DNA of 64,000 nt from Acidimicrobiia bacterium (GTDB lineage: Bacteria > Actinomycetota > Acidimicrobiia > IMCC26256 > PALSA-610). Below the pieces are notes generated by a model. The model saw only the letters and a program-made list of their open reading frames with translations, was not told the DNA's origin and searched no databases. Positions 3,343-9,249 of this stretch are shown piece by piece. Positions within the stretch are counted from its first letter, which is position 1. Every line of letters starts with the position of its first letter. The position numbers and the translations under genes are program-made. Location: contig JAOSJK010000001.1 of the NCBI GenBank assembly GCA_027494135.1, positions 62,001 through 126,000 of the forward strand, written 5' to 3'.

Positions 3343-4073
3343 ACGGCCACCAGGTCGCGGATCTGCGCGTAGCGGCTCTCGCCTATCCCCGAGACCTGCT
3401 GCAGCTGGGCGACGTCGGTGAAGCCGCCGCGCCGGTCGCGCTCGTCGATGATCGCCGCCGCGAGGGTCGGCCCGATCCCCGGCAGCTCCTCCAGCTCCGC
3501 CTGCGTCGCCGCGTTGAGGTCGAGCGGGGCTGAAGGCTCGGTCGCGGTCCCCGTGCCCGACCCGCCGCTCGCGGTCATGCTCACCGGCGTGGGCGGGTCG
3601 CCGACACGGGCCACGAGGACCTTCTCGCCGTCGACGAGCGGTGCGGCCAGGTTCAGCCGGTCGAGATCCGCGTCGCGGAGTCCGCCGCCGGCGGCGTCGA
3701 TGGCGTCGACCACCCGCGACCCTGTGGGGAGGGTCGCCACTCCCGGTCTCCTCACCGCGCCGGCGACGTGGACCACGACCGCGATCGGGGCCGTCTGCGT
3801 CGTCGGCCCGGGGGCACTCGCGCTCGCGACCTCGACCGCCGAGGTCGTCGTCTCGGCCGTCTCCTGCTCCGACGTGCCCTGCCCGGTCGGGGTGGCAGTC
3901 GCCGAGCGGAACCAGAACGCGCCGGCGGCGAGGGCCACCGCCACCACCGCCACGGCGCCCAGCCTCGGATCACCGCGCAGTGCTCTGAGACGGTCGCCCA
4001 GATCTGCCAGACGGCCGTCGGGCAGACCGGGGCGCGGGGGCAGCATCGGCGATGACGGGTATCCGTCGGGCAT
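3339..4073 (-). CDS. comEA: ComEA-like DNA-binding protein (SLBB + helix-hairpin-helix)
   Basis: A membrane-anchored DNA receptor for competence, 244 residues. A transmembrane helix lies near residues 38-55 (AVAVVAVALAAGAFWF), then a Ser/Thr-rich linker. An SLBB domain follows (PIAVVVHVAGAVRRPGVATL, about 95-140), then a C-terminal double helix-hairpin-helix (DLNAATQAELEELPGIGPTL and QLQQVSGIGESRYAQI). Start ATG at 4073 has GAGGA close upstream. It heads the comEA-comEC-folP2-holA run; leuS ends 109 nt upstream on the same strand. Confidence 0.88.
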   Translation of the reverse strand: MPDGYPSSPMLPPRPGLPDGRLADLGDRLRALRGDPRLGAVAVVAVALAAGAFWFRSATATPTGQGTSEQETAETTTSAVEVASASAPGPTTQTAPIAVVVHVAGAVRRPGVATLPTGSRVVDAIDAAGGGLRDADLDRLNLAAPLVDGEKVLVARVGDPPTPVSMTASGGSGTGTATEPSAPLDLNAATQAELEELPGIGPTLAAAIIDERDRRGGFTDVAQLQQVSGIGESRYAQIRDLVAV

Positions 4074-4182
4074 CTCGTCCTCCGGGCGCGCGCGGGCAGT
4101 GCTCAGGAGGAAGTGACGGAGGAAGCTGCCGTGACGCTACCGCGCGATCGCGTGGTTGGCCATCTATGTGCAGCCGGCGCCG

Positions 4183-7121
4183 TCAGGCGACGACGAAGTT
4201 GACCATGCGGCCCGGCACGATCACCGCCTTGCGCAGCGTCTTGCCGTCGAGGAGGGCCGCCACCTTCTCGTCGGTGCGAGCCGCGGCCTCGTGCGCGGCC
4301 TCGTCGGCACCGACCGGCACCATCACACGCGCGCGCACCTTGCCGTTCACCTGCACCGGGATCTCGATCTCGTCGGCGACGAGGTAGGCGGGGTCGGCCT
4401 CGGGGAACTCCTCGAATGCGAGCGTCGTGTCGTGACCCAGCAGCGACCAGAGCTCCTCGGCGATGTGGGGCGCCAGCGGCGCGACCATCAGCACCAGCGG
4501 CTCCACGACCGATCTCGGAACCGCACCGTTCTCGCCGACTACCTGGGTCACGTGGTTGTTGAGCTCGAAGAGTCGGGCCACCGCCGTGTTGAACCGGAGT
4601 GCGGCCATGTCGGAGCGCACGGTGTCGATCGTGCGGTTCAGCGCTCGCAACGTCTCTTCGGTCGGGGGTTGGTCGGTCGCGCGCGCGGCGCCGGTCTCCT
4701 CGCTGACGACGTTCCGCCACAGCCGCTGGAGGAACCGGTGCACGCCGACGATGTCCGACGTGTTCCACGGTCGGGATGCGTCTAGGGGCCCCATGAACAT
4801 CTCGTAGAGGCGCAGCGTGTCGGCCCCGTACTCACGGCAGATGTCGTCCGGCGCGACGGCGTTCTTCAGGCTCTTGCCCATCTTCCCGAACTCCCGCGTG
4901 ACCGGCCTGCCCTCGAAGTAGAAGCCGCCGTCGCGCTCCTCGACCTCGTCTGCCTCGACGTACGTGCCGCGCTCGTCGGTGTACGCGGCCGCCAGGATGT
5001 ACCCCTGGTTGTAGAGGCGCTGGAAGGGTTCCGGGTTGGTGACGTGTCCGAGGTCGTGGAGCACCTTGTGCCAGAAGCGCGCGTAGAGGAGGTGCAGCAC
5101 GGCGTGCTCGACACCGCCCACGTACAGGTCGACGAGGCCGGCCGCCTGCGAGCCGTCGCCACGGGTGCCCGCGGCCCAGTGGCGCTCGACGGCGGGGTCG
5201 ACCATCGCGTCCTCGTTCGTGGGGTCGAGGTAGCGCAGGTAGTACCAGCACGACCCGGCCCACTGGGGCATCGTGTTCGTCTCGCGGCGGTAGGTCTTCG
5301 GGCCGTCGCCCAGGTCGAGGTCGGCTATGACCCATTGCTCCGCTCTCGCGAGCGGCGGCTCGGGCAGGGCCTCCGGGTCGTCGGAGACCCTGGGCTCGAA
5401 GTCGACGATGTCGGGGGAGCTCGACGGGGGAGCATCGCCTCCGGCACGGCAACCGGCCGGTCGCTCTCGTCGTAGGCGATCGGGAACGGCTCGCCCCAGT
5501 AGCGCTGCCTGCTGAAGAGCCAGTCGCGCAGCTTGTAGGTGATCGTCGGCCGCCCCTGATCGGTGCTCTCGAGCCACTCGCCGATTACGCGCTTCGCCTC
5601 GGCGGTGCCGAGGCCGTCGAGGCTCACGGTGTCGTTCGCCGAGGCCATCGCCTCACCCTCGCCGACGAACGCCTCGGGCCACTGCGACGCGGGCACCCCG
5701 GTCGGCAGCCCTCGATCGTCGAACCAGTGCGCCGGCGGCCGCACGACGCCGACGATCGGGAGGTCGAACTCGGTGGCGAACTCGAAGTCGCGGTGGTCGT
5801 GTGCGGGGACGGCCATGATCGCCCCGGTGCCGTACCCCATGAGCACGTAGTCGGCGATGAAGACCGGGATCCTGGTGCCGGTGGTCGGGTTGACGGCGAA
5901 CGCGCCCGTGAACACTCCCGACTTCTCGCGCCCCTCGGATTGTCGCTCGAGCTCCGACTTCTGGGCGGTGAACTCCCGGTAGCGGGCAACGGCCTCCGAC
6001 GGCGTCCCCGTGGCGCCGAAGACGCCACGCCACGATGCGAGCGCCCCGTCGTTCCAGTCCCAGGCGACCGAGTCGTCGGGCCACTCGTTCGCCGTGACGA
6101 CGTCGACCAGCGGGTGCTCGGGTGCGAGCACCATGTAGGTCGCACCGAAGAGGGTGTCGGGCCTGGTGGTGAAGACGGAGATCTCGACGCCGTCGTGCCC
6201 GTGCACCGGGAACGCCACCTCCGCCCCGTGGCTCCGGCCGATCCAGTTGCGCTGCATCTGCTTGATCGAGTCGGTCCAGTCGAGCAGGTCGAGGTCGTCG
6301 AGGAGGCGGTCGGCGTACGCGGTGATGCGGAGCATCCACTGCTTCAGTGGCCTCTTGAACACGGGGAAGTTCCCGCGCTCGCTGCGCCCCTCGGAGGTGA
6401 CCTCCTCGTTCGCCAGCACCGTGCCGAGGCCGGGGCACCAGTTGACGGGCGCCTCGTCGAGGTATGCGAGCCGCTGCGAGTCGATGTGTTCGCGCTGCTC
6501 GCCGGGGGTCATCGCCCGCCACGCCCTCGCGTCGCCGGGCGTGCGGTCGCCCGAGTCGAGCAGCTCCACGAGCTCACGAATGGGACGCGCCCGACCCACC
6601 TCGTCGTCGTACCACGAGTCGAAGATCTGCAGGAAGATCCACTGCGTCCAGCGGTAGTAGCCGGTGTCGGTCGTCGCGATGCCGCGGCGGGGATCGTGCC
6701 CCAGCCCGAGAGCGCGGAGCTGACGGCGCATGGTTGCGATGTTCGCCTCGGTGGTCTCTCTAGGGTGCCGGCCCGTCTGCACCGCGTACTGCTCCGCGGG
6801 GAGGCCGAAGGCGTCGTAGCCCATCGCGTGCAGCACGTTGTAGCCACTCATGCGCTGGAACCGCGCGTAGACATCGGTTCCGATGAAGCCGAGCGGATGG
6901 CCCACGTGGAGGCCCACGCCCGACGGGTAAGGGAACATGTCGAGCACGAAGAGCTTCGGCCTGCCGGCGACGCTCTCCGCGCCCTCACTCAGGAGGCCCG
7001 TCGGGTTCGGCGTGTGGAAGGTCTTCTCCACCTCCCAGCGGTCCTGCCAGCGCCGCTCGATCTCTCCGGCCAGAGCGGCGTCGTAGCGGTGCGGCGGGGC
7101 GTCGTCGGCTCTCTCGTTCAC
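4183..7121 (-). CDS. leuS: Leucyl-tRNA synthetase (apparent double +1 frameshift at 5413-5430)
   Basis: Charges tRNA-Leu. The N-terminal frame has the HIGH-type motif in [16 protein letters not shown], an editing domain ([14 protein letters not shown]) and the [10 protein letters not shown] segment. The C-terminal frame has [11 protein letters not shown] and the KMSKS-type motif GKMGKSLKN. The two frames meet at 5413-5430, where two runs of five G (plus strand) each appear one base too long. Removing one base from each gives MLPVELPDIV, matching the family's LPVxLP motif, with about 978 residues in total. I chose GTG 7121 because TACGCT (7129-7134) lies 7 nt upstream, fitting a leaderless start; an ORF extension to 7199 has no such support. 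The break is most likely a sequencing error because the gene is essential. Confidence 0.9.
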
Positions 7122-7128
7122 GGCGCCG

Positions 7129-7134
7129 AGCGTA
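7129..7134 (-). promoter_or_regulatory. -10-like hexamer TACGCT of leuS
   Basis: TACGCT on the minus strand ends 7 nt before the GTG at 7121. It is one of a recurrent set of TANNNT elements placed 6-10 nt before start codons in this window, consistent with leaderless transcription. Confidence 0.5.
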
Positions 7135-7230
7135 CCGTCTGCCCTCTCGGCGCCCGTCCCAATACGGGACTCCGACGTCGTCCTCGGCATCGGCGCCACG
7201 GCGCGCCGCTGCTATCGTGAGGGGTCCCTC

Positions 7231-7304
<74 letters not shown>

Positions 7305-7348
7305 CCGTGTGATCTGTGCACACCTCCAGCGCCGTGGGGATCACCGAC

Positions 7349-7391
7349 CATGTCGCGTCCAGCCACCGATTCGGTGGCTAAACGCGACATG
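7349..7391. repeat. 43-bp interrupted palindrome (two nested stems)
   Basis: The outer arms CATGTCGCGT and ACGCGACATG pair over 10 bp. After a symmetric 2-nt mismatch (CC/AA), the inner arms AGCCACCG and CGGTGGCT pair over 8 bp around a 3-nt loop. It lies between the Ala tRNA and the AhpD-like gene. No T-run follows on either strand, so it is not a classical intrinsic terminator, though it could end the tRNA transcript. A mobile palindromic repeat is the other reading. Confidence 0.7.
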
Positions 7392-7413
7392 AACCGCTCG
7401 ACCCGGTGCCGGG

Positions 7414-7426: not shown

Positions 7427-8458
7427 GTGACCACGCCGTCGATCCGCGCCGATCTGGCCGAGGCGCACGCGGCGGTCGTCGCGGAGTGGGGCGAGCCGGG
7501 CACCTGGTGGACCGGTGCGGAGCGACTCGCGATCGTGGCGGAGCTCAGGCGCGCACGCGCCGCGGATCCGCTGCCGCCCTGGGTCTCACCGTCTGCCGAG
7601 GGCCTCGTGCCCGATGACCATCTGCTCTCGGCTCCGGCGGTCGATGCCATCTGGCGCATCGCCAACCACGCCGGCACCTTCACGCGTGACGTCTACGACG
7701 CGCTCGTCGCCCGCGGTCTCTCCCCCGAGGCCTACGTGGAGCTCGTCGCAGTAGTCGCGACGGCGGCCGCTCTCGACACCTTCACCACTGCCCTGGGTCT
7801 CCCTGTGTATCCGCTGCCCGATCCCGTCCCCGGAGAGCCGACGCGCGAGCTCGTAGCCGGCGCCGTAGCGAGCACCCACTGGGTCCCGACCGTTCCGGGA
7901 GGCGTGAGCGTCCTGCAGGCGCTGAGCGCGGTCGCTTCGGGCAACGAGACGCGCCGCAACCTCTCCGAGGCGCAGTACCTCCCGGCGGAGGCGCTCATCG
8001 GCGACCTCACCTGGTCGCGAGGCACGCTCGACCGCCTTCAGATCGAGCTGATCGCCGCCCGCACGTCGATCCTCAACGAGTGCTTCTACTGAACGTCGTC
8101 GCATAGCCTGCTGCTCGGTCTGAGCAGCCTCGAGACAGGCCAGGACGTCGACATCAGCCGGGTTGCCGACAAGGGCGACGGGGACGGCGGCATCACCCAC
8201 GGAGCCGAGCTCGCAGCGTTCGTCGACGCGATCCACTCAGGCGACGCCGACCTGATCGCGATCGCACGCAACCGGGTCGCCGCATCCTGTGGCAGCGACG
8301 CGATGGTCGATGCGGCAGCCGTCTGCGCGAACTTCCAGATGATGACCCGCATCGCGGACGCGACCGGCACGCCCCTCGACGAGTTCAGCGTCGAACCCTC
8401 CGCGGAGCTCAGGTCGGAGCTCGGGATCGACTCCTTCGCCGGCCGGCGGATCCTCTAG
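7427..8458 (+). CDS. AhpD-like / carboxymuconolactone-decarboxylase-family selenoprotein (in-frame TGA = Sec222)
   Basis: Predicted thiol/selenol peroxidase-like protein of 343 residues if the TGA at 8090-8092 is read as selenocysteine. What is seen: the frame continues past TGA for 121 codons with protein-like composition to TAG at 8456-8458. The TGA sits in E207-x11-C219-F-Y-U222-x3-H226, which reproduces the AhpD catalytic layout (Glu, Cys-x-x-Cys, His; M. tuberculosis AhpD E118, C130, C133, H137). A SECIS-like hairpin lies at 8110-8128. The protein is longer than a minimal AhpD (about 175 residues), with a roughly 150-residue N-terminal part ahead of the active site and a helical C-terminal half containing 'ANFQMMTRIADATG'. 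What is known: AhpD-like selenoproteins have been predicted from metagenomes. What is inferred: the genome encodes SelA/B/C/D. The alternative is a TGC/TGT-to-TGA sequence error or a truncated gene ending at 8092. Confidence 0.8.
8110..8128 (+). promoter_or_regulatory. Bacterial SECIS-like stem-loop
   Basis: GCTGCTC-GGTCT-GAGCAGC is a perfect 7-bp stem with a 5-nt loop that begins with GG. The apical loop begins 24 nt after the TGA, inside the 16-37 nt range used for bacterial SECIS elements. The GGUCU loop resembles that of E. coli fdhF. Within the frame it encodes LLLGLSS, so it does not break the protein. Confidence 0.75.
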
Positions 8459-9145: not shown

Positions 9146-9195
9146 GGTCCGGACCGTAGCCGCACGGCGCTCTCCTCACATCGACATCGATAGCG

Positions 9196-9249
<54 letters not shown>

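Follow-up and report, generated by a model that had tools for sequence, protein, structure and literature searches.

A reading frame interrupted by a single TGA

The window analyzed here is a stretch of 64,000 nucleotides from an Acidimicrobiia bacterium (assembly GCA_027494135.1, contig JAOSJK010000001.1, positions 62,001 to 126,000), and the gene under study is a member of the NCBIfam family NF041238 whose frame is interrupted by one TGA, predicted to encode selenocysteine (Sec). From GTG 7427 to TAG 8456-8458, a single frame of 343 residues is broken only by TGA 8090-8092 at residue 222, and it contains the active-site motif E207-x11-C219-F-Y-U222-x3-H226 (Table 1); an in-frame GTG at 7406 is an alternative possible start. 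Re-reading of the frame confirmed this layout and motif as given in the original prediction. Its proposal that the protein is AhpD-like and carries Sec as its second redox residue was also supported, in that reading the TGA as Sec would restore the E/C/U/H site. A stop at the UGA would leave a 221-residue stub, broken within the catalytic helix. The loss foreseen for standard gene calling, a fragment of 221 residues, is already real since the database protein identical to the frame (P0002) has 221 amino acids and stops at the TGA. Likewise, among the best 120 of 310 database homologues found, 118 end exactly in CFY and are thus truncated at the identical site.

We surveyed 296 genomes of the same class as the source using the NF041238 cut-off, which was exceeded in 45 genomes at 48 loci (loci counted from the listing). 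One in-frame TGA was found at 47 of these loci and none at the remaining one, in genome G246. In a survey of 396 genomes of the phylum, 4 were over the cut-off, all from the source's own class, and within the source's order the only such genome among 58 was the source itself (counted from the listings). Identity between the window protein and the nearest relative fetched (L047) is 58% up to the TGA and 51% beyond it. This identity on both sides of the codon, the recurrence of one TGA at nearly all loci and the shared CFY ends argue that the interrupted frame is not due to chance.

The gene belongs to a known selenoprotein family

NF041238 (AhpD_rel_CFYUT, "alkylhydroperoxidase-related (seleno)protein") is a full-length equivalog model of 357 positions. 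With 348.3 bits (cut-off 175), the window protein covers profile positions 1-356. CFYUT, the motif of the family, is present with TGA in the window gene, and Cys and TAG forms exist among the relatives. PF02627 (CMD) is also over its gathering score (29 bits, cut-off 23, residues 190-227), and the next sequence family, TIGR01926 'peroxidase-related', lies below its own cut-off.

The original prediction took a two-part protein of this size (about 340 residues) to be undescribed, a claim that fails because the NF041238 model and a 2005 description precede it; NCBI protein records already carry the family name. According to a 2026 review, in the part available, NF041238 with its CxxU motif corresponds to "hypothetical protein 1" from the Sargasso Sea survey of 2005 (PMC13188914), for which the accessible text of that survey gives four sequences, a CXXU motif and a predicted selenocysteine insertion sequence (SECIS) element (PMC1088965). 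The window gene shares with this family the full-length match, the T following CFYU and the CxxU motif, and no feature separates it from the family, of which it is a member. Our searches of the open-access literature found no paper containing the string CFYUT, none joining Acidimicrobi- names with selenoprotein and selenocysteine, and none on a sestrin-like fold of the NF041238 family; a search joining sestrin, selenocysteine and AhpD returned nothing related, its sole match being, from the text at hand, an unrelated article (PMC7066401).

The codon at the Sec site varies among relatives

The window gene and 34 relatives were aligned around the Sec site. TGA is found in 31 of these 35 sequences, TAG in one (L049, Geodermatophilus chilensis) and a Cys codon in three, namely TGT in L048 (Marinomonas) and TGC in L050 and L053. 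The alignment continues through the site in all three Cys forms, in line with the check set by the original prediction. The tree places L049 and L053 among the TGA forms, with a long branch leading to L053; the placement of L048 and L050 is unsure.

The TAG of L049 (4544-4546) is followed by a maintained frame, with 34% identity over 94 residues. The G. chilensis genome contains a tRNA-Sec match (L059 1497-1592, - strand, 65.1 bits) with anticodon cta, which ARAGORN labels Pyl because of this anticodon. ARAGORN identifies a second match over the cut-off in the same genome (L061, 48.2 bits) as a tRNA-Ser, so tRNA-Sec scores close to the cut-off are not decisive. Judged from these sequences, the TAG/CTA pair fits Sec at the residue-222 site. 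UAG-coded Sec is known in the Geodermatophilaceae, where the proteins named are FDH, UGSC and AhpC (PMC5330540, seen in part); L049 shares with them the TAG codon and the CTA anticodon, whereas the main text of that article mentions AhpD 0 times.

We also considered whether the switch from Sec to Cys is tied to loss of tRNA-Sec, a link that proved weak and was dropped. In the Cys-form genome G246 (L053) the best tRNA-Sec match has E 1.9e-7 and is not strong, but four TGA-form genomes (G295, G244, G210 and G275) likewise have none below E 1e-8. Marinomonas, a Cys form, has no tRNA-Sec over the cut-off, its best match being a tRNA-Ser, and the genome of L050, another Cys form, does carry a tRNA-Sec.

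A SECIS-like hairpin follows the UGA

Third-base conservation beyond codon usage was highest, out of 294 codon columns, at columns +8, +11, +10 and +9 (z 9.1, 6.3, 6.2 and 5.5). Together these four columns make up a SECIS-like hairpin shortly after the UGA; the next most constrained column is the isolated +44 (z 5.0). Column +10 ends in G irrespective of the amino acid. All 32 sequences compared, the 31 with TGA and the one with TAG, which retains the hairpin, agree at the columns TGCTC, at the loop G and at GAG. In 27 of the 31 TGA sequences, the best hairpin places a 5-base loop at nucleotide 25. No such hairpin occurs in the Cys forms L048 and L053, and L050 has one in a different register. 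In the two outer stem pairs, 8 alignment cells are changed on both sides versus 2.9 under shuffling, where none of 500 shuffles reaches 8. An Rfam scan for SECIS families at the site gave five matches, all far below their gathering scores.

Selenocysteine machinery in the source genome

The source genome assembly (G000) comprises 3.93 Mb and is 77.5% complete. The original prediction called for a search for the sel genes, which was borne out in part: tRNA-Sec, selA and selB were found, selD did not exceed its cut-off and selA lies in two frames. The tRNA-Sec (58.3 bits, over the cut-off) has anticodon tca. The main piece of selA scores 334.8 bits and adjoins selB, which is unbroken and scores 299.1 bits, or 323.1 with its C-terminal piece. 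A second selenoprotein gene in this genome matches the UGSC family at 153.4 bits (cut-off 125), its single TGA being the U of DUGSC. The tRNA-Sec, selA, selB and UGSC genes and the window all lie on one 1.65-Mb contig (C1). A hairpin-forming stretch was observed directly after the TGA of the UGSC gene.

Two predicted AhpD-like halves in one chain

The predicted structure suggests a single chain made of two AhpD-like halves, with E207, C219, U222 and H226 in the C-terminal one. These positions, with C or U at 222, are invariant in 32 aligned rows. The helix-turn-helix is kept in the predicted C-terminal half (helices 203-216 and 220-237), while the N-terminal half is predicted to have neither cysteines nor the second helix of this element. 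The Cys relative from Marinomonas (L048, protein 4001-4456) has a CxxC (CEFC, residues 42-45) in its N-terminal half and CFYC in its C-terminal half. The case for a duplication rests on the predicted folds together with this N-terminal CxxC.

The family fold is predicted to resemble that of human sestrin, a fused AhpD pair. Sestrins also have two AhpD-like domains per chain, but in human Sestrin2 the live half is N-terminal, whereas in the window protein it is C-terminal with CxxU. As described in the portions available of two articles (PMC4674687, PMC11429811), the live half of sestrin has one Cys, and the C-terminal half provides a hinge and the GATOR2 and leucine functions. Closer in arrangement are the two-domain AhpD proteins of Corynebacterium ureicelerivorans and Comamonas aquatica, which, in the partial text of PMC11429811, have a live C-terminal half and a Cys-free AhpD-like N-terminal half. 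By this published description they share the order of halves with the window protein but have two Cys, where the window protein would have Sec as the second. Mycobacterium tuberculosis AhpD and the single-domain AhpD-like proteins (1gu9, 6k40, 2prr) differ in having one domain, with Cys and not Sec. In a comparison of the family profile with solved structures, the AhpD-like matches were confined to the C-terminal half and the N-terminal part gave chance matches only (gag capsid proteins, E 0.78 and above). Sestrin was not among the matches listed for the N-terminal half alone, which excludes nothing.

Gene surroundings

We tried the gene neighborhood as a clue to function and dropped it: the 18 close same-strand neighbors picked by hand from 15 loci include no common partner beyond single survey families. 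Within such families, L022 and L025 share a cyclopropane synthetase, L043 and L046 an acetyl-CoA synthetase-like gene, and L019 and L026 a TGS GTPase.

Between the tRNA-Ala gene and the selenoprotein start lies a 43-nt hairpin (7349-7391; -32.9 kcal/mol, z -7.58) with no T-run after it. Its core was absent from the other loci fetched up to that point and present only in loci of the same place; this hairpin might be a terminator, an operator or a mobile remnant. At 9178-9249, a 6-bp tandem repeat (ACAGCG, twelve copies, 92% matches) lies at the 3' end of a - strand open reading frame that resembles short-chain dehydrogenases, below their cut-offs. The leuS gene (4183-7199, - strand) appears as two overlapping open reading frames in different frames (TIGR00396, 546.5 and 339.3 bits, cut-off 548.4), a split that is probably an assembly insertion or deletion (indel).

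Table 1. Positions of the selenoprotein gene, its parts and other features
Feature	Position	Strand	Remarks
Selenoprotein gene, NF041238 family	7427..8458	+	343 codons with UGA as Sec, then TAG
In-frame TGA, predicted Sec222	8090..8092	+	Frame, class survey, aligned relatives
N-terminal half, residues 1-146	7427..7864	+	Predicted degenerate AhpD-like domain; no Cys in window copy
C-terminal half, residues 150-343	7874..8455	+	AhpD-like catalytic domain with CFYU helix-turn-helix
Glu207	8045..8047	+	Invariant, 32-row alignment; putative proton relay
Cys219, first redox residue	8081..8083	+	Invariant, 32-row alignment
His226	8102..8104	+	Invariant, 32-row alignment; putative proton relay
SECIS-like hairpin	8110..8128	+	7-bp stem starting 18 nt, and 5-nt loop (GGUCU) 25 nt, after UGA
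tRNA-Ala gene	7231-7306		Anticodon ggc
UGSC selenoprotein gene	L086 1501-1926 (G000:C1:858127-858552)		UGSC family match

Discussion

We consider it highly probable that the window gene encodes a member of NF041238 in which tRNA-Sec and SelB, aided by the SECIS-like hairpin, very likely read the UGA as Sec, and whose product is a predicted sestrin-like fused AhpD pair that would reduce organic hydroperoxides. The Sec assignment draws on the one TGA within the frame, on conservation of the frame beyond that codon, on nucleotide-level constraint in the hairpin and on a matching tRNA-Sec and selB in the genome. Once the UGA is decoded, the selenol of U222 would attack the hydroperoxide, C219 would resolve U222 as a selenenylsulfide, and E207 and H226 may relay protons, as proposed for AhpD. 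The selenoprotein call is sound and the family is known.

Several results weigh against parts of this interpretation. In the source genome the best selD match reaches 27.4 bits against a cut-off of 125, at the stated completeness, and a strong selD match is present in 11 of 13 other genomes of the same taxonomic family. As assembled, selA gives three matches in two frames directly upstream of selB (L014, G000:C1:1022593-1023891). For the hairpin, the 7-pair stem slid by +3 scores a nearly equal covariation (0.113 vs 0.124), the inner five stem pairs show no changes on both sides in the aligned sequences, the folding energy at the window hairpin is ordinary (z 0.05 for 51 nt; also z -0.66), and just 6 of the 31 TGA sequences surpass 95% of their synonymous shuffles. 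Individual sequences being weak in energy and shuffling, it is the shared register that constitutes the evidence for the hairpin. As for the fold, profile-profile comparison of the two halves as duplicates was not significant (E 0.38 and 0.068, probability <1%), Foldseek gave no match at E 0.001 or better (Sestrin2 at E 1.1), the Pfam scan at E up to 1 returned CMD and no sestrin family, and no sestrin appeared when the family profile was run against solved structures (E up to 10).

The lack of a selD above cut-off and the frame breaks of selA and leuS would also suit an ordinary AhpD-like gene with no Sec made, its TGA being either a genuine stop or an error of assembly. The split selA reflects either assembly indels or a damaged gene and, as both selA and leuS are divided between two frames, indel errors in this assembly are likely, without this being proof. 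The breaks observed are indels, whereas the selenoprotein gene keeps its frame; together with the same TGA at nearly all family loci, the conserved hairpin and the Geodermatophilus TAG/CTA pair, this makes such an origin very improbable. It is unlikely, though less remotely so, that the Sec protein is a thiol-disulfide or reductive dehalogenase-like enzyme and not a peroxidase: the conserved E/C/U/H set matches the AhpD proton relay (PMC4674687, in the part available), and TIGR01926 'peroxidase-related' is the next sequence family, below its cut-off.

How the predicted resemblance to sestrin arose allows two accounts. We tentatively put forward, at somewhat less than even chances, that NF041238 proteins are bacterial 'selenium sestrins', in which duplication fused two AhpD domains, the front half died by losing its CxxC and the helix that bore it, and the back half exchanged its second Cys for Sec. 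This would be a mirror image of sestrin, in which catalysis stayed with the front half and the back half became available for binding. A role in binding or sensing may likewise fall to the dead front half of the NF041238 proteins, and the Marinomonas relative with CxxC in both halves would stand near the undegenerated state. We think it rather probable, though, that the match reflects only the domain packing of AhpD-type proteins, as in AhpD dimers, and that the halves were joined independently of sestrin. Identity to Sestrin2 is 9%, the profile search recovered no sestrin, the opposite half is catalytic, and an artificially fused pneumococcal AhpD dimer is already SESN2-like (PMC11429811, partial text). 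A shared fold does not demonstrate descent.

What is new here is the predicted sestrin-like two-half fold and the UAG-coded relative. Routine annotation drops one third of the enzyme and, with 118 of the 120 listed homologues cut at the same residue, those records show the family only as stubs that lack the catalytic helix. A natural control is provided by the Geodermatophilus relative, whose Sec-site codon follows the anticodon of the tRNA-Sec. The division of work in a fused AhpD pair has been raised in print as a question for sestrin ancestry (PMC11429811, in the part available), and if the sestrin-like fold is confirmed, this family would offer a bacterial, Sec-containing counterpart for such a division between a live and a dead half.
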